DNA from: a virus
Length of the DNA: 33,895 nt
Reading direction: 5' to 3' (one strand)
Virus record (IMG/VR): IMGVR_UViG_3300037294_000357
Coordinates: 1 to 33,895 of that record
A model generated the notes under the pieces. It worked only from the letters and a program-made list of their open reading frames with translations. It searched no databases and was not told where the DNA came from. How positions within the stretch are numbered: the first letter of the stretch is position 1; each line of letters opens with the position of its first letter. Positions 8,133 through 20,550 of the stretch are shown here, piece by piece. The position numbers were made by a program, and so were the translations under genes.

Positions 8133-8345
8133 ATGGCCAAGGTCACTATCACCCTAGAAGACACGCCCGACCGCGTCACCGTATCCATGGATATGGCCGG
8201 CGCTCCGAGCAATTTGCGTGGTACGCCACTTCAAACCCGAGCGGTGCTGATGTCGCAAACCCTGTTCGATCTGGCGGCAGTAGACGCCAAGCTCAGCCAG
8301 CTACCGGCCTGCGCCCGCCACACATCGAACATGACCATTCACTAA
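8133..8345 (+). CDS. Hypothetical small early protein
   Basis: This 70-residue acidic protein begins MAKVTITLEDTPDRVTVSMD, a beta-rich start, and has a helical middle. The start is fixed by TAGGAG eight bases upstream. An upstream in-frame ATG would lie inside the previous gene. Not recognised. Confidence 0.55.
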   Translation: MAKVTITLEDTPDRVTVSMDMAGAPSNLRGTPLQTRAVLMSQTLFDLAAVDAKLSQLPACARHTSNMTIH

Positions 8346-8415
8346 GCGAAACCGCCCCGGCCTAGTCGGTGGTGGTCTGCCGGGTGTGGTTGCCCGGTAC
8401 TGATGAGCAGCCAAG
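8346..8415. other. Short gap with a hairpin in the early operon
   Basis: This is the only clear intergenic gap of the early operon. CCGGG (8380-8384) and CCCGG (8393-8397) can pair across eight bases. There is no T-run, so it is not an obvious terminator. No promoter is recognised. Confidence 0.3.
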
Positions 8416-8697
8416 ATGAGAAATACAAAACGAACAGAGCGCATCCGCAAGCAGGATGCCGACCGCCAACAGGCAAAGCGTGACCGCGACGCGGCGCACC
8501 GTGACCGTGTGGGCGCACAAGTAACAAAGCTGACCACCTACCAGGGCACCCGTGCTGACTGGGCGCTGATGCAGCAGGTTGGCGAGTTTGAGGAAGTCGA
8601 GGAAGTGATCACGCTAATGACTCGCTATATGGCGGGTATGGCGCGGCGCGACCCGCAGGCATTCCTTAATGCGATGAATCCGAGGAACCCGGTATGA
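8416..8697 (+). CDS. Small charged protein, N-terminal basic helix
   Basis: In this 93-residue protein the first 35 residues are almost all Arg, Lys, Asp and Gln (RKQDADRQQAKRDRDAAHRD), likely a helix binding nucleic acid or forming a coiled coil. The rest is an acidic helical region (EEVEEVITLMTRYMAG). It overlaps gemA by four bases. No family is recognised. Confidence 0.55.
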   Translation: MRNTKRTERIRKQDADRQQAKRDRDAAHRDRVGAQVTKLTTYQGTRADWALMQQVGEFEEVEEVITLMTRYMAGMARRDPQAFLNAMNPRNPV

Positions 8698-9101
8698 GCG
8701 CAGGTAAGCAAAAAATTCAGATCGCCCGCCGCCAGCTCGGCCTGGACGATGCTGCGTACTACGCGATACTGGCCCGCGTTGCTGGCGTGAAAAGCTCCAA
8801 AGAGCTGACACCGGGTCAGATCAGCCGCGTACTGATCGAGCTGGAGCGCCTAGGCTTCAAGCCCAAAGCTGCGAAGAAACCCAGCCGCGCGGCACCAAAG
8901 CCTGCGCCAGACCGCACAGCCCAGGTTGCTAAAATCGAAGCCTTCTTAGCAGAGGCTAAGCGCCCTTGGAGCTATGCCGATGCGATGGCCTTGCGGATGT
9001 TCAAGGTTGAACGGGTAGAATGGCTCGACGCTGACCAGCTGCGCCGTATGATCGCCGCGCTGACTTACGACGCAAAGCGTCACGGGAGACCCATAAAATG
9101 A
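8694..9101 (+). CDS. gemA: GemA/gp16-like regulatory protein
   Basis: This 135-residue protein belongs to the Mu gp16/GemA family (DUF1018). It opens KIQIARRQLGLDDAAYYAIL and has the conserved block about residues 20-60 (VAGVKSSKELTPGQ, VLIELERLGFK), then a basic Ala/Pro linker and a second helical domain (RRMIAALTYDAKRHG). In Mu, GemA affects host gene expression and DNA supercoiling, but the mechanism is unsettled. It overlaps both neighbours by four bases and precedes mor, the standard Mu-like arrangement. Confidence 0.85.
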   Translation: MSAGKQKIQIARRQLGLDDAAYYAILARVAGVKSSKELTPGQISRVLIELERLGFKPKAAKKPSRAAPKPAPDRTAQVAKIEAFLAEAKRPWSYADAMALRMFKVERVEWLDADQLRRMIAALTYDAKRHGRPIK

Positions 9102-9526
9102 AAATTGATCAGGTGAAACAGCTGCTACCCAAGCAGCTACTGGACATCGCCGAGGCCATTGGCCTACCGGCAGCCCAGCGCCTGGTCGACGAACTTGGCG
9201 GCACCACTTGGCCAGTGGCCAAGGGCTTGCGCCGCCTAGGCATCATTCGCCATGCGGCCCTAACTGACGTTGTCGGTGAAGAGGCGGCCAGCATCATGGC
9301 CAAGCACTGGGGCAGCGTGCAGCTGTATATCCCCAAGTGTGATTCAGCCCTGCGCTGCTTGCGCGACCTGGAGATCAACAGCCAGTTTGAGCAAGGCGTG
9401 CGTGAAGGTGTAAGCGCCAACACCCTGGTCGCCGAGCTGGCGCGCAGCAATAAGCTGAGTGACCGGCGCATCTGGGAGATTCTCAAGCAGCCGTCGCCCG
9501 AGGCTACCGGCGACCTATTCCACTGA
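9098..9526 (+). CDS. mor: Mor/C-family transcriptional activator
   Basis: This 142-residue activator has the Mor family signature. The dimerisation half is followed by a strand with VQLYIPKCDSALR, the DLEIN turn and a C-terminal helix-turn-helix (ANTLVAELARSNKLSDRRIW). In Mu, Mor switches on the middle promoter and its paralogue C the late promoters by recruiting RNA polymerase. Only one such gene is present here, so it probably drives the late blocks directly. The paired elements at 10072 and 19438 are its best candidate targets. The start ATG overlaps the gemA stop. Confidence 0.88.
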   Translation: MKIDQVKQLLPKQLLDIAEAIGLPAAQRLVDELGGTTWPVAKGLRRLGIIRHAALTDVVGEEAASIMAKHWGSVQLYIPKCDSALRCLRDLEINSQFEQGVREGVSANTLVAELARSNKLSDRRIWEILKQPSPEATGDLFH

Positions 9527-9537
9527 AGGAGAAGTAT

Positions 9538-10020
9538 ATGCAGCGCTTCTGCAAGGCAATTACCCTCGCCGCCGGATTGTGGCTGGCCAGTGTAGGCACT
9601 GCTTACGCCGAGCTGGACGCGTTCACGGCATCGGCCCGCGACTCGTTCAGGGAAACAATCGCCGCTTACTCTGTCCAAACTACAGACACCTCGATTGAAG
9701 AGCAGGCCAAGTACCTCATGCTGGTTAAGAATGGACTTTCCCTTTACCGGGATGGTGCCTTAGAGGCCGAAGACAAGAGCGCCCTGGGCACTCTAGTCGA
9801 TCAACAGGTGAAAGCATCGAATGCTGCGCTAGGCTCTCCGCTAGCCGCCGAACAGAAGGCGCTAGTTAGACAGATGCATACTGCAGCACTAGCGGCCAAA
9901 CAGCTCTTGGATCTGGAGCCGACTACTCAAGGCTATTCCGGGCTGATGGATAACTACCAAGCTGGCGTCGGATATGATGCCTACCGATCCGCTCAGGATA
10001 TCGGCATCGAGCAGTATTAA
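9538..10020 (+). CDS. Exported protein of unknown function (cargo gene)
   Basis: In this 160-residue protein the first ~24 residues are a textbook Sec signal peptide: basic MQRFCK, a hydrophobic core AITLAAGLWLASVG and a TAYA cleavage site. The mature part is helical, acidic and lacks cysteines. AAGGAG precedes the ATG, and a strong terminator follows 20 bases after the stop. It sits after mor and before the lysis block, where Mu has no equivalent. It looks like a moron acting in the periplasm of the lysogen or infected cell, for example in superinfection exclusion. That role is inference; the family is not recognised. Confidence 0.7.
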   Translation: MQRFCKAITLAAGLWLASVGTAYAELDAFTASARDSFRETIAAYSVQTTDTSIEEQAKYLMLVKNGLSLYRDGALEAEDKSALGTLVDQQVKASNAALGSPLAAEQKALVRQMHTAALAAKQLLDLEPTTQGYSGLMDNYQAGVGYDAYRSAQDIGIEQY

Positions 10021-10039
10021 AGCTTTGCTGCACCACTCC

Positions 10040-10066
10040 AAAAGCCCCGCCAAGTGCGGGGCTTTT
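10040..10066 (+). terminator. Rho-independent terminator of the early operon
   Basis: AAAAGCCCCGC pairs perfectly over 11 bases with GCGGGGCTTTT around a CAAGT loop, with T-rich sequence after it. It closes the early operon and separates it from the late block starting at 10126. The A-tract on the left would also let it work in the opposite direction. Confidence 0.9.
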
Positions 10067-10071
10067 GCTTT

Positions 10072-10126
10072 CTACTGAACCCCTTCAAACTGTTTTGACT
10101 GCCCACTGCCGCTGACCATAGCGGCA
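10072..10126 (+). promoter_or_regulatory. Candidate late promoter 1 (Mor/C-dependent), upstream of lysis genes
   Basis: CTACTGAACCCC (10072-10083), then TTCAAACT, is nearly identical to a block at 19438 and lies at the same distance, 54 bases, from the next ATG. A weak -10 (TGTTTT, 10091-10096) follows. A dyad TGCCGC (10107-10112) / GCGGCA (10121-10126) reaches the start codon. The conserved upstream block in the -35 region with poor core boxes is what an activator-dependent promoter should look like. Confidence 0.6.
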
Positions 10127-10467
10127 TGAACAATCAAGCCCCGGTATCTCAGCCCAACCCACGCGAACTAGCCGCCGCCATTCTGGCCGAGCCAGTGCTG
10201 GAGCAACGCCGCCTGATGATGGCGCGCTGCCCAGCAGAGTTGCTTGCGTTGGTAGAGGAATACGTTCGCGCCGGTTATTCCAAGGTCAAAAGCTACCGGC
10301 AACACCAAGACCTGCGCGCGCAAAGCGCCCGTGAAAAGCCAGCAGCGGCCCCGCGCCGCGAAGCCAAGAACAGCGTTATCCATCACACAAAGTCAGCGCC
10401 TGAGGTCGGTAATCAGCGTCTAGCTGAGCTGCGTGCTCTGGTTGGAGGTGCTGCTCATGGGCATTAA
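10126..10467 (+). CDS. Hypothetical protein heading the lysis block
   Basis: This is a 113-residue basic protein with an N-terminal helical part (RELAAAILAEPVLEQRRLMM), a Lys/Arg-rich middle (QSAREKPAAAPRREAK) and no membrane segment. It is the first gene after the proposed late promoter and lacks a normal ribosome-binding site, with GCGGC just before the ATG. It overlaps the endolysin by 11 bases. It is not a recognisable holin. Confidence 0.6.
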   Translation: MNNQAPVSQPNPRELAAAILAEPVLEQRRLMMARCPAELLALVEEYVRAGYSKVKSYRQHQDLRAQSAREKPAAAPRREAKNSVIHHTKSAPEVGNQRLAELRALVGGAAHGH

Positions 10468-10960
10468 AACCCGTATCGCGCTGGCCATCGTGGCCGCCAC
10501 ACCTGTTGTCGCCTACTACGAAGGCCGCAGCCTGCTTGCGTATCTCGATCCCGTAGGCATTCCAACAATCTGCGACGGCTGGACTTATGGCGTGCGCCTC
10601 GGTGACGTTGCTACGCCTGTCGAGTGCGACCAGAAAACCCAGGTCGCGCTCCAGGACGCGGCTGATGTTTTCGAGCGCTGGGTGCCGGTCAAGGTGATTG
10701 CCAGCATGGACACCAAGAGCATCGCGGCCTTTCTGTCGTTTATCTACAACGTAGGCCCCGGTAAGCCCGGCGTGAAGGACGGCTTTGTCTGGCTCAAGAA
10801 CGGCCGCCATTCGACCATGCTGCTGCACCTACAGGGCGGGCGTATCCAGCCGGCCTGCGCACAGCTCAGCTATTGGGTGAGCGCTGGCGGTCGCAAATTT
10901 CGGGGGTTGGTACGGCGGCGGGCGGCTGAGCGTGAGTTGTGCGAGGCGGTACTGCAATGA
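10457..10960 (+). CDS. Lysozyme-type endolysin with SAR signal anchor (GH24)
   Basis: This 167-residue muramidase cuts the glycan chain of peptidoglycan. Residues 1-18 (MGIKTRIALAIVAATPVV) are a weakly hydrophobic signal-arrest-release segment. It would tether the enzyme in the inner membrane until membrane depolarisation. The catalytic Glu follows at once (YYEGRSL), and the GH24 signature PTICDGWTYGV comes after it. Later helices include IAAFLSFIYNVGPG and the conserved end GGRKFRGLVRRRAAE. The upstream ATG-like frame at 10433 is disfavoured because the ATG at 10457 has GGAGG ahead. A stop/start overlap joins it to the spanin. Confidence 0.88.
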   Translation: MGIKTRIALAIVAATPVVAYYEGRSLLAYLDPVGIPTICDGWTYGVRLGDVATPVECDQKTQVALQDAADVFERWVPVKVIASMDTKSIAAFLSFIYNVGPGKPGVKDGFVWLKNGRHSTMLLHLQGGRIQPACAQLSYWVSAGGRKFRGLVRRRAAERELCEAVLQ

Positions 10961-11586
10961 CCTGGCTCACCTATATACGCCCATTCCTGCCACTGGCTTT
11001 GGTTGCTGCCCTAGGGCTATTGGTCAATTACTTAGAGAACGCGGCCTACGGCGACGGTTTCAAGCAAGCGCAAAGCGATGGCGAGTTAGCCCTAGAAAAG
11101 CTGCGTTCGGAGCATCTCCAGCTTGACCTGGTGCGAGCCAAGGCAATCAACGCCAGTGCCAAAGCGGCCGCTAAAAAGCTGCTCGATGAACAGGCGCGCA
11201 ACGACCAGCTCGCCGCCGATCTGGCTGAGCAGCAGCGCACCCACCGCAAAACCACCGACCGCCTTACTGGGGAAATTGCCCGTGTTAACGACCTCTATCG
11301 CGACGCCCTCGACGCGCCGCCTAAGCCTCTGCCTGCTTGCGTGTTCACTGCTGGCTGGGTGCGCGTTTATGACGAAGCAACCGGAGCCATTACCACCGGA
11401 ATGCCCTCGGCCGCAGATACCGGCAGAGCTGCTGCGCAAGTCACCGAAGGCCACGCCGCTGAGCAACTCGATTCAGGTATCAGCCAGCGCGACATCCTGG
11501 AGCACCACACCCGCTACGCCGAGCAGTGCCGCAACACTGCCGCGCAGTTGGACCTTCTGATCGACGCAGTACAGGGGCAGCACTAA
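10957..11586 (+). CDS. Rz: Rz-like inner-membrane spanin subunit
   Basis: In this 209-residue protein one N-terminal membrane helix (about 8-28, PFLPLALVAALGLLVNYLEN) is followed by a long charged coiled coil in the periplasm (about 35-120). That is the form of an i-spanin, which fuses inner and outer membranes at the last step of lysis. A C-terminal extension of some 90 residues makes it longer than lambda Rz (153). A lipoprotein gene is nested in another frame, confirming the assignment. The ATG overlaps the endolysin stop. Confidence 0.82.
   Translation: MTWLTYIRPFLPLALVAALGLLVNYLENAAYGDGFKQAQSDGELALEKLRSEHLQLDLVRAKAINASAKAAAKKLLDEQARNDQLAADLAEQQRTHRKTTDRLTGEIARVNDLYRDALDAPPKPLPACVFTAGWVRVYDEATGAITTGMPSAADTGRAAAQVTEGHAAEQLDSGISQRDILEHHTRYAEQCRNTAAQLDLLIDAVQGQH
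11282..11560 (+). CDS. Rz1: Rz1-like outer-membrane spanin lipoprotein, nested in Rz
   Basis: In the +1 frame inside Rz an N-terminal signal LCLLACSLLAGC ends in a lipobox. It is followed by a short Pro-rich segment (EPLPPECPRPQIP), the hallmark of Rz1 o-spanins. The mature lipoprotein would be anchored in the outer membrane and bind Rz. There is no suitable ATG; the GTG at 11282, eight to nine bases after a GGGG, is the best start and gives 92 residues, so the start is uncertain. Everything after the Pro-rich part may be just frame left open. Confidence 0.72.
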   Translation: MLTTSIATPSTRRLSLCLLACSLLAGCAFMTKQPEPLPPECPRPQIPAELLRKSPKATPLSNSIQVSASATSWSTTPATPSSAATLPRSWTF

Positions 11587-11966
11587 TGCAAATGGACTTT
11601 GCCGAAGCGGTTGGCTGGGCGCTAACCCTGCTGGGCATCTTCACCACGCTGATGTTCGGCCTGGTGAAGCTGCTGCTCGCACAGTTTGAAAAGCGCCTAG
11701 CCGAGAGCTTTGCCGCACAAGACAAAGCGCGCCAGGAAGCCGGCAAGCACTGGGACGAAAACTTTACCAAGGTGCTGGAGCGCCAGGATAAAGACGCCGA
11801 AGCCCTTAGGAGCCTGGAGCATTCCTTCCTGCGTTTCCAGGCCGAGCTGCCCCTGCAATACGTCCGGCGCGAGGACTACGTGCGCAACCAAACGGTACTG
11901 GAAGCCAAGATCGACCGCGTATTCACCAAGCTTGAATTCATCCAGGAACGGAGCAACAAACAATGA
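11586..11966 (+). CDS. Mu gp25-like membrane protein (DUF2730 type)
   Basis: In this 126-residue protein one N-terminal membrane helix (about 9-31, GWALTLLGIFTTLMFGLVKL) is followed by a charged coiled coil and the ending EAKIDRVFTKLEFIQE. This pattern and the position before gp26/gp27/terminase genes match Mu gp25. The function is unknown. A second-holin or pinholin-like contribution to lysis is possible but not shown. The ATG overlaps the Rz stop (TAATG). Confidence 0.75.
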   Translation: MQMDFAEAVGWALTLLGIFTTLMFGLVKLLLAQFEKRLAESFAAQDKARQEAGKHWDENFTKVLERQDKDAEALRSLEHSFLRFQAELPLQYVRREDYVRNQTVLEAKIDRVFTKLEFIQERSNKQ

Positions 11967-12274
11967 TCCCAATCGACACCGCCAAGGTTCGCCGCGAGTC
12001 AATGCGCTGGTACATCCTGCTCACGCTCAACAATGCCCGCCCGGTAGACCCGCACGAAGCCCTGGTGCTTTCCACCATTCAGGGCATCTATACAGACGCG
12101 ACCCAGCACGAAGTACGCCGCGGGCTGGATTACCTCAAAGCTCGCAGCTTGGTCACCCTGGATAAGCAGCCCAGCGGCGTGTGGATTGCCGGCCTGACTC
12201 ATTACGGCGTAGATGTGGCCGAGTACACCATCGCCTGTAACCCCGGCATTGCACGCCCGGCCCAGGGACTCTGA
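11963..12274 (+). CDS. Mu gp26-like winged-helix protein
   Basis: In this 103-residue protein residues 10-90 read as a winged helix-turn-helix (RWYILLTLNNARPVDPHEAL, then HEVRRGLDYLKARSLVTLDK and a wing). It keeps the Mu gp25-gp26-gp27 order in front of the terminase genes. It overlaps the previous gene by four bases and is followed after one base by the next. The function is not established. Confidence 0.72.
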   Translation: MIPIDTAKVRRESMRWYILLTLNNARPVDPHEALVLSTIQGIYTDATQHEVRRGLDYLKARSLVTLDKQPSGVWIAGLTHYGVDVAEYTIACNPGIARPAQGL

Positions 12275-12275
12275 T

Positions 12276-12788
12276 ATGCCGCCGCGCAGCAAAGTGGCCG
12301 GTTTGCCCGGCGAGGTTAAGGCTTGGCTGGATAAGGCTCTGGCCGAGAATAACTTTAGTGACTATGAGGCGCTCGCTGATGAGTTGTCCGGGCGTGGCTT
12401 TGCTATCAGCAAATCGGCGCTGCACCGCTATGGGCAAAACTTCGAGGAAAGGTTGTCGGCCCTCAAGATCGCCAGCGAACAGGCCCGCGCTGTGGTCGCG
12501 GCTGCCCCCGATGAGGAAGGCGCGGTCAACGAAGCGCTGATGCGTCTGGTGCAGGAGCACCTGTTCAAGTTGCTGATGAGCGAGGGCGGTCAGATTGACC
12601 TGCCCAAAGTAGCCAAGGCTGTAGCCGAGCTAGGTCGAGCCAGTGTTGTGCAAAAGAAATGGCAGGCCGAGGTGCGTGCCAAGGCAGAAGTAGCGGCCAG
12701 CCAAGTAGAAAAGATCGCCAAGAAAGGCGGCCTCGATGCAGACACCGTGGCCGAGATTCGCCGAGAGATTCTGGGGGTGGCTCGGTGA
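12276..12788 (+). CDS. Mu gp27-like terminase small subunit candidate (DUF3486)
   Basis: In this 170-residue protein the conserved N-terminal block is PRSKVAGLPGEVKAWLDKAL, with a helix-turn-helix up to about residue 55 (AISKSALHRYG). A long helical C-terminal half ends EIRREILGVA. This DUF3486 family sits just before the large terminase in Mu-like phages and is thought to recognise the phage end for packaging. Here an antisense cargo gene has come between it and the terminase, and its stop lies only two bases from the stop of that gene. Confidence 0.82.
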   Translation: MPPRSKVAGLPGEVKAWLDKALAENNFSDYEALADELSGRGFAISKSALHRYGQNFEERLSALKIASEQARAVVAAAPDEEGAVNEALMRLVQEHLFKLLMSEGGQIDLPKVAKAVAELGRASVVQKKWQAEVRAKAEVAASQVEKIAKKGGLDADTVAEIRREILGVAR

Positions 12789-12790
12789 GA

Positions 12791-13273
12791 CTAATAACGG
12801 TTAATGCCGCCGCGTGTACCCCTAACAGCAAATCGAGGTTCAGCCGGCGCACAGTAGATGGTCTGTTTACATTCTGGACACAACAACACTTTTCCATTCT
12901 GGTGCAGAGTCACCAGTTTTTGGCTCTCAAAGCACCGACTGCAGAGGAAGAACTCAGGTCCGCCAGCTTTAAACTCATCCTTAAGTTTGTAAGCAAACTG
13001 GCCTGTCACAAATTGGTGGCGCTCATGGCGTGCATTCTCATCACTTTGAGACGTTGCGCTTGCGAGGTTAACCTGCAGCTTAGCCACCTCTTGGATAAGC
13101 TCCATCTGCTCCATCTGTGCTTGCATCAGCTTTTGCTGCAAGTCCATCAGACTATTAGTCAGATCAAATACCTTCTCGCGGATCATTTCCCCGTCGCGCA
13201 AAGTCACCAGACTCTGGGTGATCTCTTTGGCGGTATTCGCGCTGGCAAAAGCGCCGGCAACCCAATCAAGCAT
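12791..13273 (-). CDS. Antisense cargo gene: coiled-coil protein with C-terminal zinc ribbon
   Basis: In this 160-residue protein the N-terminal helix resembles a short membrane-associated or amphipathic segment (MLDWVAGAFASANTAKEITQ). A coiled coil follows at about 35-75 (MDLQQKLMQAQMEQMELIQE), then a zinc ribbon (LCSRC ... LLCPEC, two CxxC pairs 20 residues apart). The ATG at 13273 has AGGAG upstream; a GTG at 13303 is weaker. The gene is transcribed against the late operon and lies convergent with gp27, without a terminator between them. It is AT-richer than its neighbours. It is probably expressed from the prophage independently of lytic control. No family or function is recognised. Confidence 0.7.
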   Translation of the reverse strand: MLDWVAGAFASANTAKEITQSLVTLRDGEMIREKVFDLTNSLMDLQQKLMQAQMEQMELIQEVAKLQVNLASATSQSDENARHERHQFVTGQFAYKLKDEFKAGGPEFFLCSRCFESQKLVTLHQNGKVLLCPECKQTIYCAPAEPRFAVRGTRGGINRY

Positions 13274-13316
13274 TTCAACACTCCTTTGCGCGTTATTTGG
13301 CACCGCGAGCGTACCA

Positions 13317-13331
13317 CCAGCCGGTGGCTGG
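13317..13331. other. Hairpin at the start of the terminase gene
   Basis: CCAGCC (13317-13322) and GGCTGG (13326-13331) pair around GGT, ending one base before the terminase ATG at 13333. It could hide the ribosome-binding region or mark the edge of the inserted antisense gene. No Shine-Dalgarno is visible otherwise. Confidence 0.4.
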
Positions 13332-13332
13332 C

Positions 13333-14874
13333 ATGAATATCCCCGTCATCCTGGACAGTACCGCTGCTATCGACATACCAGCCGTACTGCTCGATTACCA
13401 GAAAGACTGGATCGGCCTGCGCTCACCACTCAAGGTCGGCGAGAAATCCCGCCGTATTGGCCTGACCTGGGCCGAGGCTGCTGACAACGTGTTGGTCGCC
13501 GCAAGTGCGCGTAACGCGGGCGGGCAAACGGTTTACTACCTGGGCTACAACCAGGACATGACCATTGAATACATCCAGGCTTGTGCCATGTGGGCGCGGG
13601 CCTTCAACTATGCAGCTGGCGAGATTGAGGAAGGCATCTGGCCGGACGAAGATCCTGACAAGCACATCAAAACCTACACCATCAGCTTCCCATCAGGCTT
13701 TCGCATTGTTGCCCTGACCAGCCGACCCTCCAACCTGCGCGGCCGCCAGGGCGTGGTGGTCATCGACGAAGCGGCATTCCATGCCGACCTGGCTGAGCTG
13801 CTCAAAGCAGCGCTAGCGCTGCTGATTTGGGGCGGTGAAGTGCACGTCATCAGTACCCATGACGGAACCGACAACCCCTTTAATGAGCTGATTGAAGAAA
13901 TCCGCGCCGGTAAACGTAAGGGGATGCTATTCCGCTGCACCTTCAAGCAGGCCGTTGAGCAAGGCTTGTACCAACGGGTATGCCTGCGCAAAGGCATCAC
14001 CTGGAACGCAACAGAGCAAGAAGACTGGGTACAGGACGTTTATGACTTCTACGGCGATGCCGCTGAAGAAGAACTGGACTGCGTGCCTAGCCAAGGTGGT
14101 GGGGCCTACCTGAGCCTGGCGCTCCTGGAGCAGCGCGCCAGCCGCAATGTACCCGTACTGCGCCTGGCCTACCCGCAGGGTTATGAAACCATCGCCGAAC
14201 ACCTGCGCCTGGCTGACAGCCTGAGCTGGTGCGAGCGCGAGCTGCTGCCAATATTGGAGGCCATCGCGCCTGACCTGCGCAGCTTCTACGGCATGGACTT
14301 CGGTCGCAGTGGTGACCTGTCGGTGATCGTGCCCTTGCTCCAGGCGCAAGACCTGCGCCGCCGTCAGCCGTTCCAGGTAGAGCTGCGCAACGTGCCGTTC
14401 AAGCAACAGGAACAAATTCTGTTCTTCATCGTTGATCGCCTGCCGGGCTTCCTAGGCGGCAAGAACGATGCGCGGGGTAACGGCCAAGCAATCGCCGAAG
14501 CGGCCGCTGTGCGCTACGGCCACACCCGCATAGACCAAGTGATGCTCACCGAAGGCTGGTACCGGGACAACATGCCGCCGTTCAAGGCGGCCCTGGAAGA
14601 CGGCACCCTGGATGAGATCCCCGCTGACAAAGACACCATCGACGACTACCGCGCCCTCAAAGTGATCAAGGGCGTGCCCCGCGTGCCGGATAGTCGAACT
14701 ACTGAAAAAGGCGGCGGCAAGCGCCACGGCGATGCCGCTGTTGCCGGTGTGCTGGCCTATGCCGCCAGCCGCACCCCGGCCGCACCTATCGAATTTACCG
14801 CCGCGCCACCCAAAGCAGACCGCTGGAGTGAGAGCGACGACGACCAACCCGGTGCCTGGTCAGGTGCTTGGTAA
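13333..14874 (+). CDS. Terminase large subunit (Mu gp28-like)
   Basis: This 513-residue packaging motor with ATPase and nuclease domains cuts phage DNA and pumps it into the prohead. The ATPase shows a Walker A-like region (SRRIGLTWA, about 40-48), SRPSNLRGRQG and Walker B VVVIDEAAF (about 138-146). The nuclease part has YGMDFGRSGDLSV (about 318) and a late acidic KRHGDAAVAG, as in large terminases. A TTG at 13297 would add 12 residues, but the ATG at 13333 is preferred. Upstream late transcription must run through the antisense cargo gene. Confidence 0.9.
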   Translation: MNIPVILDSTAAIDIPAVLLDYQKDWIGLRSPLKVGEKSRRIGLTWAEAADNVLVAASARNAGGQTVYYLGYNQDMTIEYIQACAMWARAFNYAAGEIEEGIWPDEDPDKHIKTYTISFPSGFRIVALTSRPSNLRGRQGVVVIDEAAFHADLAELLKAALALLIWGGEVHVISTHDGTDNPFNELIEEIRAGKRKGMLFRCTFKQAVEQGLYQRVCLRKGITWNATEQEDWVQDVYDFYGDAAEEELDCVPSQGGGAYLSLALLEQRASRNVPVLRLAYPQGYETIAEHLRLADSLSWCERELLPILEAIAPDLRSFYGMDFGRSGDLSVIVPLLQAQDLRRRQPFQVELRNVPFKQQEQILFFIVDRLPGFLGGKNDARGNGQAIAEAAAVRYGHTRIDQVMLTEGWYRDNMPPFKAALEDGTLDEIPADKDTIDDYRALKVIKGVPRVPDSRTTEKGGGKRHGDAAVAGVLAYAASRTPAAPIEFTAAPPKADRWSESDDDQPGAWSGAW

Positions 14875-14892
14875 CCAACAGGACAAACCATC

Positions 14893-16425
14893 ATGGCAAT
14901 CGTTGATATTCACGGCCGTCCACTTGAGCAGGCCACGCTCCGCGAACAACAAACCTCCCGCCTGGCACAGTTGCACGCTGAGTTTGCCGAACACCCATCC
15001 AGTGGGCTGACCCCACCCAGGCTGGCGGGCATTTTGCGCACCGCTGAGCAGGGCGATATTCGCGCGCAGTGCGAACTGTTCCAGGACATGGAAGAGAAAG
15101 ACGCCCACCTTCTGGCTGAAATCGGTAAGCGCCGCCGCGCCCTGACCACTGTGGACTGGTCGGTGCTGCCGCCGCGCAACCCAAGTGCCGTCGAAATGGC
15201 CGAGGCCGACTGGCTTAACGAGGTGCTGCAGGACTTACCCGACTTCGAGGATTTGCTCTTCGACATGCTCGATGCCATCGGCAAGGGGTTTTCCTGCATC
15301 GAGATGGACTGGCAGCGCCTGGGCCGTGAGTGGCTGCCACAGGCATTCAGCTACCGCGAGGCATCCTGGTTCCAGCTAGACCCTAAAACCCGCACCGAGC
15401 TGCGTCTGCGCGACAGCAGCACAGAGGGCGAGGCGCTCAACCCGTTCGGTTGGATCGTCCATACACACAAAGCCAAGTCGGGCTATATCGCGCGCGGTGG
15501 CCTTTACCGGGTGCTGGCCTGGCCGTACCTGTTCAAGAACTACGCCGTGCGCGACCTCGCCGAGTTTCTGGAGATCTACGGCCTGCCCGTGCGCCTGGGT
15601 AAATACCCGCCAGGCTCCAGCGCAGATGAGAAAGCAACCCTGCTGCGAGCCGTGGTGAGCATCGGCCACAACGCAGCTGGCATCATCCCCGACGGCATGG
15701 CCATCGATTTCAAAGAAGCCGCTAAAGGCACGCATGAACCGTTCGACTGGATGGTGCAGTGGGCTGAAAAGAGCATGTCCAAGGCTATCTTGGGTGGCAC
15801 GCTGACCAGCCAGGCCGATGGTAAGAGCAGCACCAACGCCCTGGGCGCAGTGCACAACGAAGTACGCCACGACCTGCTCAAGAGCGATGCCAAACAAGTC
15901 GCTACAAGCCTGCGGCAATACCTGCTGTACCCGCTCCTGGTACTGAATAAGGGTGGCGACCGCGATCCGCGCCGCTTGCCGCGCTTTCAGTTCGACCTGG
16001 TCGAAGCTGAGGACATGGCCACCTATGCCGAGGCGCTGCCGAATTTGGTCAATGCCGGTATGCGAATCCCGCTCAACTGGGCACATGAAAAGCTGCGTAT
16101 TCCGCTGCCAAGCAAAGACGACGCGGTACTTGGCAGCACAAGCCCTGCAGCACCAGGTGCAGCGGCAACACGCGTGGCAGCCCTGAAAGCCGAGCCAGAG
16201 GCTGACCCGCTGGATGATCTAGCCGACCAACTGGCTAGCGAGTGGGAGCCGGTGGCCAACATGATGGCTCCGGTGCAGCAGTTGCTCGCCAGCTGCAAAA
16301 CCCTAGAGGAATTTCGCGACCGATTGCCCGAACTGGTAACGCAACTGGATGCCGCCCAAGTTACTGAGTTGGTCACCCAGGGGCTGTTTGCAAGCACCTT
16401 GGCTGGCCGTACCGGTGCTATCTGA
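14893..16425 (+). CDS. Portal protein (Mu gp29-like, DUF935)
   Basis: This 510-residue protein forms the ring at the head vertex through which DNA enters and where the tail attaches. Family features are the N-terminal LRTAEQGDIRAQCELFQDME, KRRRALTTVDWSV, the core WPYLFKNYAVRDLAEFLEIY followed by GLPVRLGKYPPG, and TSQADGKSSTNALGAVHNEV near residue 310. Length and position after the terminase are normal for this family. The stop overlaps the start of the next gene (TGATG). Confidence 0.92.
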   Translation: MAIVDIHGRPLEQATLREQQTSRLAQLHAEFAEHPSSGLTPPRLAGILRTAEQGDIRAQCELFQDMEEKDAHLLAEIGKRRRALTTVDWSVLPPRNPSAVEMAEADWLNEVLQDLPDFEDLLFDMLDAIGKGFSCIEMDWQRLGREWLPQAFSYREASWFQLDPKTRTELRLRDSSTEGEALNPFGWIVHTHKAKSGYIARGGLYRVLAWPYLFKNYAVRDLAEFLEIYGLPVRLGKYPPGSSADEKATLLRAVVSIGHNAAGIIPDGMAIDFKEAAKGTHEPFDWMVQWAEKSMSKAILGGTLTSQADGKSSTNALGAVHNEVRHDLLKSDAKQVATSLRQYLLYPLLVLNKGGDRDPRRLPRFQFDLVEAEDMATYAEALPNLVNAGMRIPLNWAHEKLRIPLPSKDDAVLGSTSPAAPGAAATRVAALKAEPEADPLDDLADQLASEWEPVANMMAPVQQLLASCKTLEEFRDRLPELVTQLDAAQVTELVTQGLFASTLAGRTGAI

Positions 16426-17600
16426 TGATTGACCTGGTGCCGCTGCCACCCTTAGAAGCCGTCGAGTACTTCAGGCAGAAGGGCTTTGCCATTGGCTTTG
16501 ACTACCGCGACGTGTGGCAGGCCCAGCACCAGGCTGCGTTTACCGTGGCTAAGGTCATGCAGCTCGATCTGCTGCAGGACATCCGCGCCGAGGTCGACCG
16601 TGCCCTGGTCGAAGGCATCACCCTGCGCGATTTCCAGCAGCGTCTCACCCCAACCCTGCAGGCCAAGGGCTGGTGGGGGCGCAAAGAGCAGCACGATCCA
16701 CTGACTGGCAATACCGGTGAGGTGCAGCTGGGCAGCCCGCGCCGGCTGAAGGTTATCTATGACACCAACCTACGCACCGCCTATAGCGAGGGTCAGTGGG
16801 AGCGTATCCAGGCGCGCAAGGATGCGTTCCCATACCTGGAATACGACGGCAACAACTCCGAGCATCCACGCCTTGACCACTCAGGCTGGGATGGCTTGGT
16901 ACTGCCGGTAGATGATCCGTTCTGGCAGGCGCACTTTCCGGTTAAGGCATACGGCTGTAAGTGCCGCGCCATCCCGCGCACGGGTCGCCAAGTAGAACGC
17001 TCAGGCAAAACCGTAGGCCCGACCCCAAATGTACCTAGCGCACCCTATGTGAATGCCCGCACGGGTGAGGTGCAGCAGATACCGGCCGGCGTTCATCCGT
17101 CATTTCACTACCCGCCAGGCGGCCGCCGTGCCGGCTTGGCGCGTCACCTGGTGGAGAAACTGGACAGCGCACCGGCTGGGATCGCCCGCGCCAGCATTGC
17201 TGACCTGGTCAGCGGCCCGGCGTTCTCGGAGTGGTACCGCAAGCCGGCTGGTAGTTTCCCGCTGGCGTTCATCGGCAAGGAAGTGGCAGAGCGGCTGGGG
17301 GCCAAGACTCAGCTGGTTGCACTGTCTGAGGACACCCTGGCCAAGCAGCTGCGTGAGCACCCGGAAATCATCCTAGACGAATACACCATGGTGCAGGCTG
17401 CTATTGATCGGGGAACTGAGGTGGCTGGCAATCAGCCTAATACCAGCGTCTACCTGCTCGATGAGGCGGACGGCTATGTAACGGTGATCAAGGTGACTCG
17501 TGATGGACGCCAAGTCTTTATGACCAGCATGCGGCGGTTGAGCCGCGATCAGGCCAAGCGCGATGAGGAAGTCCGGCGCTTGCTGAGTAAGAAGAAGTGA
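16425..17600 (+). CDS. F: Minor head protein gpF with C-terminal PBECR nuclease-like domain
   Basis: In this 391-residue protein the first ~200 residues are the phage Mu F family, with RRLKVIYDTNLRTAYSEGQW, RLDHSGWDGLVLPVDDPFW and the cysteine motif YGCKCRAIPRTG. In this family it joins the portal/head interior. After a linker, residues about 265-380 (WYRKPAGSFPLAFIGKEVAE, ALSEDTLAKQLREHPEIILD, VFMTSMRRLS) look like a PBECR domain, a Barnase/EndoU/RelE-like RNase fold fused to phage structural proteins. Such a domain could be injected as an effector. A strongly folded RNA-like segment begins at its stop codon. Confidence 0.85.
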   Translation: MIDLVPLPPLEAVEYFRQKGFAIGFDYRDVWQAQHQAAFTVAKVMQLDLLQDIRAEVDRALVEGITLRDFQQRLTPTLQAKGWWGRKEQHDPLTGNTGEVQLGSPRRLKVIYDTNLRTAYSEGQWERIQARKDAFPYLEYDGNNSEHPRLDHSGWDGLVLPVDDPFWQAHFPVKAYGCKCRAIPRTGRQVERSGKTVGPTPNVPSAPYVNARTGEVQQIPAGVHPSFHYPPGGRRAGLARHLVEKLDSAPAGIARASIADLVSGPAFSEWYRKPAGSFPLAFIGKEVAERLGAKTQLVALSEDTLAKQLREHPEIILDEYTMVQAAIDRGTEVAGNQPNTSVYLLDEADGYVTVIKVTRDGRQVFMTSMRRLSRDQAKRDEEVRRLLSKKK

Positions 17601-17712
17601 GCAGGCGGTGGGGCCTCCCAGTCCGACCAAGGTCGGGAACCCCACATAACGCTCCGCACCGGCAAGCCGGTGGTGCTACGGCAGGGAGAGTATCACCGTG
17701 TCACGTCTGCTC
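17599..17712 (+). ncRNA. Candidate structured RNA directly downstream of gpF
   Basis: The segment folds by eye into a closed multibranch structure. GAGCAG (17599-17604) pairs with CTGCTC (17707-17712). GTGGGG (17608-17613) pairs with CCCCAC (17640-17645) and encloses CCGAC-CAAG-GTCGG (17623-17636). CACCGG-CAAG-CCGGTG spans 17657-17672. GTG-ct-ACGG (17673-17681) can pair with CCGT-gt-CAC (17696-17704). Both small hairpins carry the same CAAG tetraloop. No open frame of note occupies it. It could be a noncoding RNA, an RNA partner of a neighbouring protein, or a regulatory 3' element. No known family is recognised with confidence. Confidence 0.55.
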
Positions 17713-17923
17713 GGCCCTCACTATAGCACTCTAACCAGATATGGAAGGCGGCAGCCTACAAGGCTGCTGGCTGCGTCTTTTGCCTGACTTGTGGTGCCAG
17801 TTAGCATTTTACGGTTTCGCGGCGTTCTGGAGAATCTAACGCCGGTCTAACGCTACGCTGTGGCTTTTCGGCGGGTGTTCAGAGAGGATGGCCACCATCT
17901 GACAGCAAACGGAGTAATTGCGA
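17713..17923. other. Remaining gene-free stretch before the cargo pair
   Basis: This is the rest of a 323-base stretch without a gene. It holds a terminator-like hairpin (17751-17767), a second inverted repeat GGCGTT (17821-17826) / AACGCC (17838-17843) and a weak possible promoter, TTGCCT (17780-17785), 16 bases, TAGCAT (17802-17807). GGAG at 17911-17914 is the ribosome-binding site of the next gene. Nothing coding is seen. Confidence 0.4.
17751..17767 (+). terminator. Possible terminator after gpF / structured RNA
   Basis: GCAGCCT and AGGCTGC form a seven-base stem with an ACA loop. The T-rich TCTTTT comes eight bases later, so termination would be imperfect. If it works, the downstream cargo genes need their own promoter. 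Confidence 0.45.
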
Positions 17924-18901
17924 GTGTCCCGCCGCCCAGCCAATAAAACCATTCATTACGTTCGCGCCGCCTATAACCAAGGAACTGCGCCGACGAAGAA
18001 CTTTGAACAACTCGTGCGCCAAGCAATGAATAAGCTCGGACGTATGGATGAAACAGACATCACCATGTCCACGCTCGGAGTCGTAAGCGTCCGTCACCGT
18101 GAAACAGAAACGGGTGAATCGTTACGGCTGTCTATCGGTGCTGGCGTACCGGGCGAGCAGATGAGCACAGTAGGTATCAAAGTCACTGCTGAGTTTGACA
18201 ATGATCAAACGGCTAGCGCGCCTAGGGATCGAGCTTTTAAACATGGCGATGCCTTTCTGCTGATTGAAGAAAACGACTTGCTTGTTGTGACTGACGGCCC
18301 ATTCCGGGTAAACACCGTATCGGTCTATCTTCGCGAGCTATTCTCAAAAGCAGACTTGAAGAACGAAACTACGGCTTTCGAGCTGAAAAAAGTGACCAAC
18401 CAGGATACGAAGGCAATCCTTGCAGCTGAAGGTATCAAGGAGCTTCGTTTGGGCACCACGATGTACCAGGCCACCGACACCCTGGACTCTCTTCAAGCGC
18501 CGTCGTCTGTTAAGGCCAAGCTGAAATCATTTGTTGGGACATTGAAAAATGTTTTCGCCGCAGATGTCAGCGAGAAGCGATTACTGCAGCTTGCAGAGCA
18601 TTGGGGTGAGCTTCAAGTCAGTACTGTGATAAGTGCTGTAGGCGGCTCCAGGGCTGACGAAGTGGTACTTGAGGCGATGTTCAATGTTGGTGAGGACGTG
18701 CTAGAGGAAGCTGAGAAAGGCGTTGAAGTAACCGTAATCACTAAGAAAAATACACCTGTGAAGATGAACCAGGTAACACCTACCAAGGGGATTCGTCTGT
18801 TGCGTAGAGAAGGCGCGAACGACCTGATCAATACCGAGGTCTACACAGAGTTGCTTACCTACCGGCAAGAACTGCAAAAAAATGGGCAATGGAAACAGTG
18901 A
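17924..18901 (+). CDS. Unrecognised 325-residue soluble protein (cargo gene)
   Basis: It starts at GTG 17924, which has GGAG nine bases ahead; a TTG two codons earlier is too close to that site. The protein has no signal peptide, membrane helix or catalytic motif I can name. The N-terminal half looks alpha/beta (HGDAFLLIEENDLLVVTDGP, then VSVYLRELF). The C-terminal half is helical, then beta-rich (GVEVTVITKKNTPVKMNQV). The DNA is visibly AT-richer than the head genes on either side. It overlaps the membrane-protein gene behind it by 13 bases, so the two are probably made together. A sensor/effector pair guarding the lysogen, or a counter-defence, are the main ideas; neither is shown. Confidence 0.7.
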   Translation: MSRRPANKTIHYVRAAYNQGTAPTKNFEQLVRQAMNKLGRMDETDITMSTLGVVSVRHRETETGESLRLSIGAGVPGEQMSTVGIKVTAEFDNDQTASAPRDRAFKHGDAFLLIEENDLLVVTDGPFRVNTVSVYLRELFSKADLKNETTAFELKKVTNQDTKAILAAEGIKELRLGTTMYQATDTLDSLQAPSSVKAKLKSFVGTLKNVFAADVSEKRLLQLAEHWGELQVSTVISAVGGSRADEVVLEAMFNVGEDVLEEAEKGVEVTVITKKNTPVKMNQVTPTKGIRLLRREGANDLINTEVYTELLTYRQELQKNGQWKQ

Positions 18902-19425
18902 CCGCACCTTCAAAAAAAACGAGCTGGCGAAAAGTGGCGTACATCGCTGCATGCATCGCTATTTCCGTTTTCTTTGCGTGGCAGTTTCAGCCCAAATACC
19001 ACGACAACAGCAACGCCTTATCCGTTTTGGTCACTGTGTTCTCGATCCTAGCCGGCTTTTTGGTTGCCGTGATGGCCATCGTGGGTAGTGAGCGCGCGCT
19101 CAAAGGTCGCAACTGGCGACAAGACACGTTCTATTTGCTCCACGTTAAGCAAGACCTACAGAGACATTCCGCGCTGTTCTACCTGTATCTTCTGGTGCTG
19201 GCGCTTTCTTTTCTAGCGTCGTTAAACCTCGGTTGGCCAGCCTTGATACAAGTCAGCGTGGAAGGCGTGCTGCTGTTTTTGGCGTGCCTTGCAATGCTTC
19301 TATCGTTCTCACTCCCAGGACAGCTGACTCGCAGGCATGTCAGCGACCTTGAGGCCGCTATTAAATCGCGTCGCGATAAAGAAGCAGGCAAGACAGAGAG
19401 CCGCACCGATCAATCCGTAGACTAG
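18889..19425 (+). CDS. Four-helix inner-membrane protein (cargo gene)
   Basis: This 178-residue protein has four predicted membrane helices: about 16-34 (VAYIAACIAISVFFAWQF), 43-67 (LVTVFSILAGFLVAVMAIVG), 96-115 (FYLYLLVLALSFLASLNLGW) and 119-141 (SVEGVLLFLACLAMLLSFSL). A ~45-residue loop lies between helices 2 and 3. The C-terminal tail is highly charged and faces the same side as the N-terminus. It starts inside the end of the 325-residue gene without a strong ribosome-binding site, pointing to translational coupling. Small multi-helix proteins paired with a soluble partner are common membrane effectors of abortive infection or exclusion systems. The specific family is not recognised. Confidence 0.7.
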   Translation: METVTAPSKKTSWRKVAYIAACIAISVFFAWQFQPKYHDNSNALSVLVTVFSILAGFLVAVMAIVGSERALKGRNWRQDTFYLLHVKQDLQRHSALFYLYLLVLALSFLASLNLGWPALIQVSVEGVLLFLACLAMLLSFSLPGQLTRRHVSDLEAAIKSRRDKEAGKTESRTDQSVD

Positions 19426-19437
19426 ACACCTGCAAAG

Positions 19438-19492
19438 CTACTGAACCCCATCAATCTATAACGCCTCCCTCATGCCACAGACACTGGCGGCA
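19438..19492 (+). promoter_or_regulatory. Candidate late promoter 2 (Mor/C-dependent), upstream of protease/head genes
   Basis: CTACTGAACCCC (19438-19449), then ATCAATCT, repeats the block at 10072 and is likewise 54 bases before the next ATG. TATAAC (19457-19462) makes a better -10 than in the first copy. TGCCAC (19473-19478) and GCGGCA (19487-19492) repeat the dyad in exactly the same register. It restarts late transcription after the cargo insertion. Confidence 0.62.
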
Positions 19493-20550
19493 TGAAGAAA
19501 AAAGCCCCCACTCAGACCACCGCCTTCGCCGCCTGTACCTTTGAGATACAGGCCGAGGGAACGGCTATTCAGCTTTTCCCGGCCGGTGCCTTCAAGGCAC
19601 GCGACGGCCGCCCCAAAGACGTTGCCGCTGGGCACTGGTATATCGACGCTCTGGTGGCCGCCCGGCTTATCAGCTTGTTGCAGGCCCGCGTGACCGACCT
19701 GGTCATCGACTACGAACACCAGACCCTGAACAGTGCCGAGAACGGCAAGCCTGCTCCGGCCGCTGGTTGGTTCAAAGGTGCCGCTCTGGAGTGGCGCGAA
19801 GGCCAAGGCTTGTTCGCCACCCAGGTGGGTTGGACAGAGTCGGCTGCTGGCTTTATCGCCGCCAAGGAATACCGCTACCTCAGCCCCGTATTCAGCTACG
19901 ACCGCAACAGCGGAGCCGTGCTCGATCTGCTGCACGTCGGCCTCACCAATTACCCCGCACTCGACGGCATGGACTCCCTGCCGGCGCTAGCGGCTGCGCG
20001 TTTTCAACTGGCCGACCCGGCCGCCCTTTCCGCAGAGGAGAACCAAAGTGTGAATAAAGACGCACTGATCGCAATGCTTGGCCTGTCCGCAGATGCCAGC
20101 GAAGAAGACATCCAGACCGCCCTGACTGCCCTCAAGGGTGACGCGGGCAAAGTCCAGGAACTGCAAACGGCCTTGGCCGCTGCCAAAACTCAGCAGGCAG
20201 ACCCAGCCAAGTTCGTACCGGTGGCCGTGGTTGAAGAGCTGAAAAAGGACATCGCCGCGCTCAAAGCCAATCAAGTTGATGGCGAAGTTGAAACCCTGGT
20301 GAAAGCCGGCCTTGCCGATGGCCGTCTGTTGCCTGCACAGGAAGCGTGGGCACGTGACCTGGGTAAGAGCAACACCGCCGCGCTCAAAACCTACCTGGAA
20401 CAAACCCCGGCCATTGCTGCGCTCAAGGGTCAGCAGACCTTGGATCGTTTGCCCGCAAGCCAAAACCATGGCCTTACCGATGTGGAGCTGCAAGCCGCCG
20501 CGCTTACCGGCCTCACCCCCGAAGCCTACGCCAACGCAAAAGGAGCCTAA
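19492..20550 (+). CDS. I: Prohead protease gpI with C-terminal scaffold region
   Basis: This 352-residue protein has an N-terminal ~180-residue Mu I-type protease domain, with HWYIDALVAARLISL, VIDYEHQTLNS, PAAGWFK and EYRYLSPVFSY all visible. It is followed by a helical scaffold. The protease processes head proteins during capsid maturation. The second half is also made alone from an internal start at 20050 (Z). The gene follows the second late-promoter element directly and lacks a normal Shine-Dalgarno. Confidence 0.88.
   Translation: MKKKAPTQTTAFAACTFEIQAEGTAIQLFPAGAFKARDGRPKDVAAGHWYIDALVAARLISLLQARVTDLVIDYEHQTLNSAENGKPAPAAGWFKGAALEWREGQGLFATQVGWTESAAGFIAAKEYRYLSPVFSYDRNSGAVLDLLHVGLTNYPALDGMDSLPALAAARFQLADPAALSAEENQSVNKDALIAMLGLSADASEEDIQTALTALKGDAGKVQELQTALAAAKTQQADPAKFVPVAVVEELKKDIAALKANQVDGEVETLVKAGLADGRLLPAQEAWARDLGKSNTAALKTYLEQTPAIAALKGQQTLDRLPASQNHGLTDVELQAAALTGLTPEAYANAKGA
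20050..20550 (+). CDS. Z: Scaffold protein Z, nested in frame inside I
   Basis: GTG 20050, nine bases after AGAGGAG, is in frame with I and would give the 166-residue helical C-terminal part alone. It begins MNKDALIAMLGLSADASEED and contains coiled-coil segments (VEELKKDIAALKANQ). In Mu, Z is likewise the C-terminal half of I and acts as the head scaffold. The start is supported by the strong ribosome-binding site; expression is inferred. Confidence 0.72.
   Translation: MNKDALIAMLGLSADASEEDIQTALTALKGDAGKVQELQTALAAAKTQQADPAKFVPVAVVEELKKDIAALKANQVDGEVETLVKAGLADGRLLPAQEAWARDLGKSNTAALKTYLEQTPAIAALKGQQTLDRLPASQNHGLTDVELQAAALTGLTPEAYANAKGA

Follow-up and report, generated by a model that had tools for sequence, protein, structure and literature searches.

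The late promoters of phage Mu are the closest described counterpart of the locus studied here. Mu has two separate activators: Mor, which acts at the promoter Pm, and C, which acts at Plys and PI. Mor binds a dyad in Pm that spans positions -51 to -36 and is centered at -43.5, and this promoter has a -10 element and no -35 element (PMC4287176). The Mu genes lys and I possess leaders with annotated ribosome-binding sites, and leaders are also found at both genes in D108.

A second related system has been described in phage T4. For the genes e, soc, 49, and I-TevI, the initiation region is concealed in the long early RNA, and the late promoters of gene e are situated within the hairpin's 5' strand (PMC3014915). 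The T4 late mRNAs retain a leader with a ribosome-binding site, and gp55 is used for their transcription.

Leaderless mRNAs represent a third point of comparison. The cI transcript of phage lambda that originates from PRM is leaderless, and, to our knowledge, leaderless phage mRNA is known mostly from repressors such as this one. Leaderless genes with an adjacent -10 element also occur in Deinococcus-Thermus (PMC12340547).

Here we describe two copies of an element in a viral sequence of 33,895 nt (IMG/VR record IMGVR_UViG_3300037294_000357; the full stretch is referred to as the window). The locus shares with the Mu promoters the gene positions, a Mor/C-family activator, a dyad near -44, and a weak -10 hexamer without a -35 element; however, the phage has a single Mor/C gene, and the start codon is located at the predicted +1. 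As in T4, the late promoter would lie in the DNA of the 5' hairpin strand, only read-through RNA would fold, and a lysis gene would be among those guarded, whereas in the window phage the hairpin would hide an AUG lacking a Shine-Dalgarno (SD) site and would carry the -10 hexamer in its loop. A TANNNT hexamer few bases before the ATG and the lack of an SD site are shared with the leaderless genes of Deinococcus-Thermus and lambda cI, but those precedents are host genes or a repressor, while the window has activator-driven phage late operons with a hairpin.

In the portions of the literature available to us, we found no study that maps a late start site in D3112, DMS3, B3, or Fc02, nor a transcript 5' end or footprint for any of these phages. 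As far as the accessible text goes, RNA sequencing of Fc02 has revealed three rightward clusters and places the beginning of the first at the holin-endolysin genes, but start sites were not mapped.

Results

The motif CTACTGAACCCC occurs in the window at positions 10072-10083 and 19438-19449 only, even when two mismatches are allowed. Among the direct repeats in the window, this pair ranks first and is also the longest (73% over 71 nt, spacing 9366), and in both copies GCGGCATGAA follows downstream. While a shared 12-mer is by itself unremarkable in 34 kb, as follows from simple arithmetic, the register of the two copies is identical: each element starts 54 bases before an ATG (at 10126 and 19492, respectively), and 38/60 positions are identical in the 60 bases preceding these start codons. 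In comparison, the corresponding 60 bases upstream of 464 other pairs of ORF starts in the window showed a mean identity of 15.9 (sd 3.6) and a maximum of 27. The common register had already been claimed in a reading made from the sequence alone, and these values confirmed it. A bipartite scan of the window for further copies ranked only the two known ones clearly at the top, both with full operator matches, and no Rfam family matched at either element.

All genes and features of the window that are given with coordinates in the following, except two accessory ORFs mentioned at the end of this paragraph, are located on the + strand. Copy 1 precedes a 113-aa ORF (10126..10467; phrog_3648, annotated as of unknown function), which represents the first gene of the lysis operon and is followed by a phage lysozyme (10433..10960; PF00959) and a spanin. 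Copy 2 precedes the Mu gene I protease/scaffold (19492..20550; PF10123, E 8e-99), in which no further in-frame ATG, GTG, or TTG occurs before codon 55. The two gene positions are those of Plys and PI in Mu. Upstream of copy 1 lies a Mor/C-family activator gene (9098..9526; PF08765, E 1.2e-16; phrog_836, 'late transcriptional activator'), which we propose to encode the sole late activator, and an intrinsic terminator with a 12-pair stem and a T-containing tail (10039..10067; arms 10040-10050/10056-10066) is situated between the mor side and copy 1. A type II hammerhead ribozyme (RF02276, 70.7 bits) was identified at 8344-8416, upstream of mor. In addition, two ORFs at 17918-19425, between the Mu F-like gene and gene I, occupy the place of the accessory/anti-CRISPR genes in D3112; they gave weak or no family matches (phrog_26543), and the second is membrane-like.

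The sequence-only reading had proposed that related phages be scanned for the element, and it was indeed found before the orthologues of both genes in Mu-like phages and prophages of gamma- and betaproteobacteria, with both promoters present in D3112 as well as in DMS3. A pattern search of viral contigs for CTACTGAACCCCNTC yielded 95 stretches, and about 30 of the copies were located 53-55 bases ahead of an ORF that, with few exceptions, was orthologous to either gene I or the 113-aa ORF. So as not to bias the sample toward the motif, we gathered upstream regions by gene homology. The first gene I set comprised 79 distinct upstream regions, mostly from a homology search of viral contigs and in a minority from pattern-fetched contigs, and the second comprised 80 prophage loci from named genomes, collected by protein homology alone; the lysis-side set was formed by the regions preceding the 113-aa ORF, of which 17 were distinct. 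In DMS3, an unannotated 115-aa ORF (L179:3204-3551) is by our analysis the first gene of the lysis operon, and the start of gene I probably lies 126 nt upstream of the annotated one. In two loci (L153 and L127), the element is present a third time, upstream of the ORF MADAYLDPTTGGYTL, a putative Mu gp46-type baseplate gene according to gene order and sequence. This third site suggests that some phages possess a third late promoter. The arrangement is common and not universal: Mu and D108 have leaders, some lysis promoters (Klebsiella Kp4852-3 and SuMu) do not fit it, whether taken as annotated or in our own reading, and the annotated SuMu starts likewise do not fit.

Position profiles were determined with the A of the ATG set as +1. 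Among 36 dereplicated gene I starts of set 1 with a single possible ATG, A(-11) was present in 75%, T(-7) in 78%, and C(-1) in 97%; among 48 prophage loci of set 2, the values were 75% for A(-11) and 73% for T(-7). The combination A-N3-T occurred at exactly -11 in 72% and 71% of the two gene I sets and at -12 in 22% and 19%, compared to a median of 3% over all other offsets, and it was present at -11 in 17/17 lysis-side starts. The bases A(-11) and T(-7) typify a sigma-70 -10 element, so that the A of the ATG would fall on +1. The corresponding hexamers of the window, GACCAT in copy 1 (10114..10119) and GACACT in copy 2 (19480..19485), agree with TATAAT at only 3/6 positions, and a sigma-70 two-box scan of 9400-20000 gave no match. 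The promoters are thus characterized by a -10 hexamer with conserved A(-11)/T(-7) and by no -35 element. A flagellar-sigma-like reading of the element (TCAA..GCCG) was abandoned because relatives do not retain TCAA; in L105, for example, TTCC stands at this position.

SD-like sites were detected at 0/51 gene I starts and at 41/47 starts of the next gene, in line with the earlier claim that such sites are absent and as expected for leaderless mRNAs. The same reading had suggested an unusual short leader. The SD-less start was corroborated; as judged from the -10 offset, the leader most likely has a length of zero. Transcription beginning at the A of the ATG (10126 and 19492 in the window) and yielding a leaderless mRNA appears probable to us, based on the position of the -10 hexamer.

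In copy 1, the hairpin TGCCGCT-GACCAT-AGCGGCA (10107..10126) has 7-bp arms that flank exactly the -10 hexamer, which makes up the entire loop, and the A of the ATG is within the 3' arm. In copy 2, the -10 hexamer lies within the loop of TCATGCC-N12-GGCATGA (19470..19495), the 3' arm of which contains the entire ATG. Of the TGCC dyad claimed earlier for both copies, a perfect 7-bp repeat in each was verified, but the arms differ between the copies. According to RNA folding, the bases of the start region are paired in the read-through RNA and free in an RNA beginning at the AUG; the read-through fold of copy 2 was not unusual compared to shuffled sequences (z -1.0). Among the phages, the arms differ and nevertheless pair, and they are coupled within each phage: the mean arm score was 5.33 and 5.25 in the two sets and dropped to 4.08 and 4.11 when the upstream halves were swapped between phages, with swap maxima of 4.56 and 4.44, and the observed score was reached in 0/200 swaps. 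In one locus (L174), the -10 hexamer is kept and half of the 3' arm is lost. Structure prediction and arm coupling together point to a hairpin that covers the initiation region in the long RNA and contains the promoter. The GC dyad likely behaves as a start-codon hairpin around the -10 hexamer, and that this hairpin silences read-through RNA appears to us slightly favored over the opposite.

As an alternative, the GC dyad may represent a protein-binding site over the -10 hexamer, for a repressor, a host factor, or as a second site of the activator, which would leave the promoter part of the reading unchanged. Such a role would agree with its palindromic nature, its overlap with the -10 hexamer, and the frequent occurrence of GCCGCC/GGCGGC. 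However, the arms vary widely while pairing is kept (GTCGCCAT/ATGGCGAC, AGCCCCGA/TCGGGGCT, GACGCC/GGCGTC), and the loop length ranges from 3 to 12, which is unlike the operator of one protein. We therefore regard a protein site as rather improbable.

The left part of the element contains a further dyad, TGAACCCCTTCA, which the first reading had missed. In copy 1, the inverted repeat TGAA-CCCC-TTCA (10076..10087) is centered 44.5 bp before the A of the ATG, and the copy 2 operator TGAACCCCATCA (19442..19453) is centered at the same distance. In both sets of relatives, inverted repeats with arms of at least 5 peak at centers from -43 to -45, with 8 to 11 loci compared to a median of 1. With the A of the ATG as +1, the dyad is thus placed close to the -43.5 described for Mor, in a phage that encodes a Mor/C-family protein. 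The activator had previously been assigned to the GC dyad; the left dyad (TGAACCCCNTCA), sited at Mor distance, is the likely, predicted activator site instead. The proposal of a single Mor/C-like regulator for two late promoters is supported by the PF08765 (E 1e-16) and phrog_836 matches. We consider it highly probable that the elements are promoters under the control of a Mor-type protein.

Among the phages, similarity of the operators tracks that of the Mor proteins (Mantel r 0.27, p 2e-4; spacer control 0.07). A Trp in the recognition helix of Mor goes along with TGA in the operator in 12/13 cases as opposed to 2/14 (Mor proteins less than 50% identical), and examples of operator class and helix are TGAACCCC/WEIL vs TGACACCC/WRIL. 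Much of this co-variation is due to shared descent, and once gene I and the remainder of Mor were controlled for, the partial correlation gave no significant evidence (p 0.12) of operator-helix specificity beyond phylogeny. A clearer case is a natural swap in genome G001, in which both promoters read ACTGACACCCG instead of ACTGAACCCC: its Mor shares just 56% identity with that of the window, although the gene following copy 1 shares 79%. In six loci (L063, L080, L209, L248, L254, and L259), the distance from the end of a Mor-family gene to the downstream gene I is 57-112 nt and not about 9 kb; their operators are of the TAAARCGCTTTA type.

The promoters might instead be regulated by another phage protein or by a host factor. 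The confounding of operator/Mor co-variation with phylogeny leaves room for this, and binding by Mor is itself predicted. Yet the operator stands at Mor distance, both operators of G001 differ along with Mor, and orf19 of D3112 is annotated as late transcriptional activator; a regulator other than Mor is hence, in our view, quite unlikely.

We assign the same low probability to a -10 element farther upstream, at about -35 to -30, in which case the GC hairpin would be an ordinary 5' leader structure of the mature late mRNA that stabilizes it or guides non-SD initiation. The better conservation of hairpin pairing than of hairpin sequence would be compatible with this, and in copy 2 a hexamer resembling TATAAC lies at about -35. 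The latter was rejected as upstream -10 since it is not conserved in relatives. Moreover, TANNNT peaks only at -11/-12 and at no upstream offset in either set, the positions from -35 to -19 are variable and C-rich, and the distance from Mor to the start would be about 20 bp, not 44. Finally, that the twin element is a functionless product of chance or recombinational duplication, for which one common 12-mer would be expected in 34 kb, has practically no probability and is already refuted: the fixed register of the two copies and the recurrence of the element at fixed spacing upstream of orthologues in numerous diverged phages and prophages demonstrate that it is real and exclude a chance repeat.

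Discussion

In the mechanism we propose, a Mor/C-family protein would bind the inverted repeat TGAA-N4-TTCA, located about 44.5 bp before the start codon, and activate the host sigma-70 polymerase at a weak TANNNT-type -10 hexamer lacking a -35 element. The RNA would begin at the A of the start codon, and as the late mRNAs would be leaderless, an SD site would not be needed. The GC hairpin, which ends in the start codon and carries the -10 hexamer in its loop, could be formed only by a longer read-through RNA, where it would hide the AUG and confine translation to transcripts from the late promoter. The proposed gain is that lysis and protease genes stay silent in read-through RNA. We are fairly confident in the explanation as a whole, i.e., that both elements are Mor-activated late promoters in the positions of Plys and PI with a leaderless start and a hairpin directed against read-through.

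In Mu itself, an inverted repeat (CTGCTCA/TGAGCAG; L183:9027-9057) is located directly before the ribosome-binding site of gene I. This could represent the same promoter-in-hairpin logic, with a leader.

On a broader scale, a large Mu-like group may transcribe lysis and head genes into leaderless late mRNAs, using Mor-activated promoters that are embedded in a start-codon hairpin, with translation only from their own late start, and Mor operators and recognition helices may have co-diversified into readable specificity classes. We consider the chances of this generalization to be evenly balanced. If true, leaderless mRNA would be the standard route by which many phages of proteobacteria, among them the CRISPR models DMS3 and D3112, express their lysis and capsid-protease operons. 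The absence of a ribosome-binding site at gene I would then be explained, as would the apparent misannotation of its start in DMS3 and D3112 and the way in which lysis and protease genes could stay silent while adjacent anti-CRISPR or accessory genes are transcribed. With the pairs of operators and Mor proteins, a data set is at hand from which a recognition code could be derived for this little-studied family of activators.
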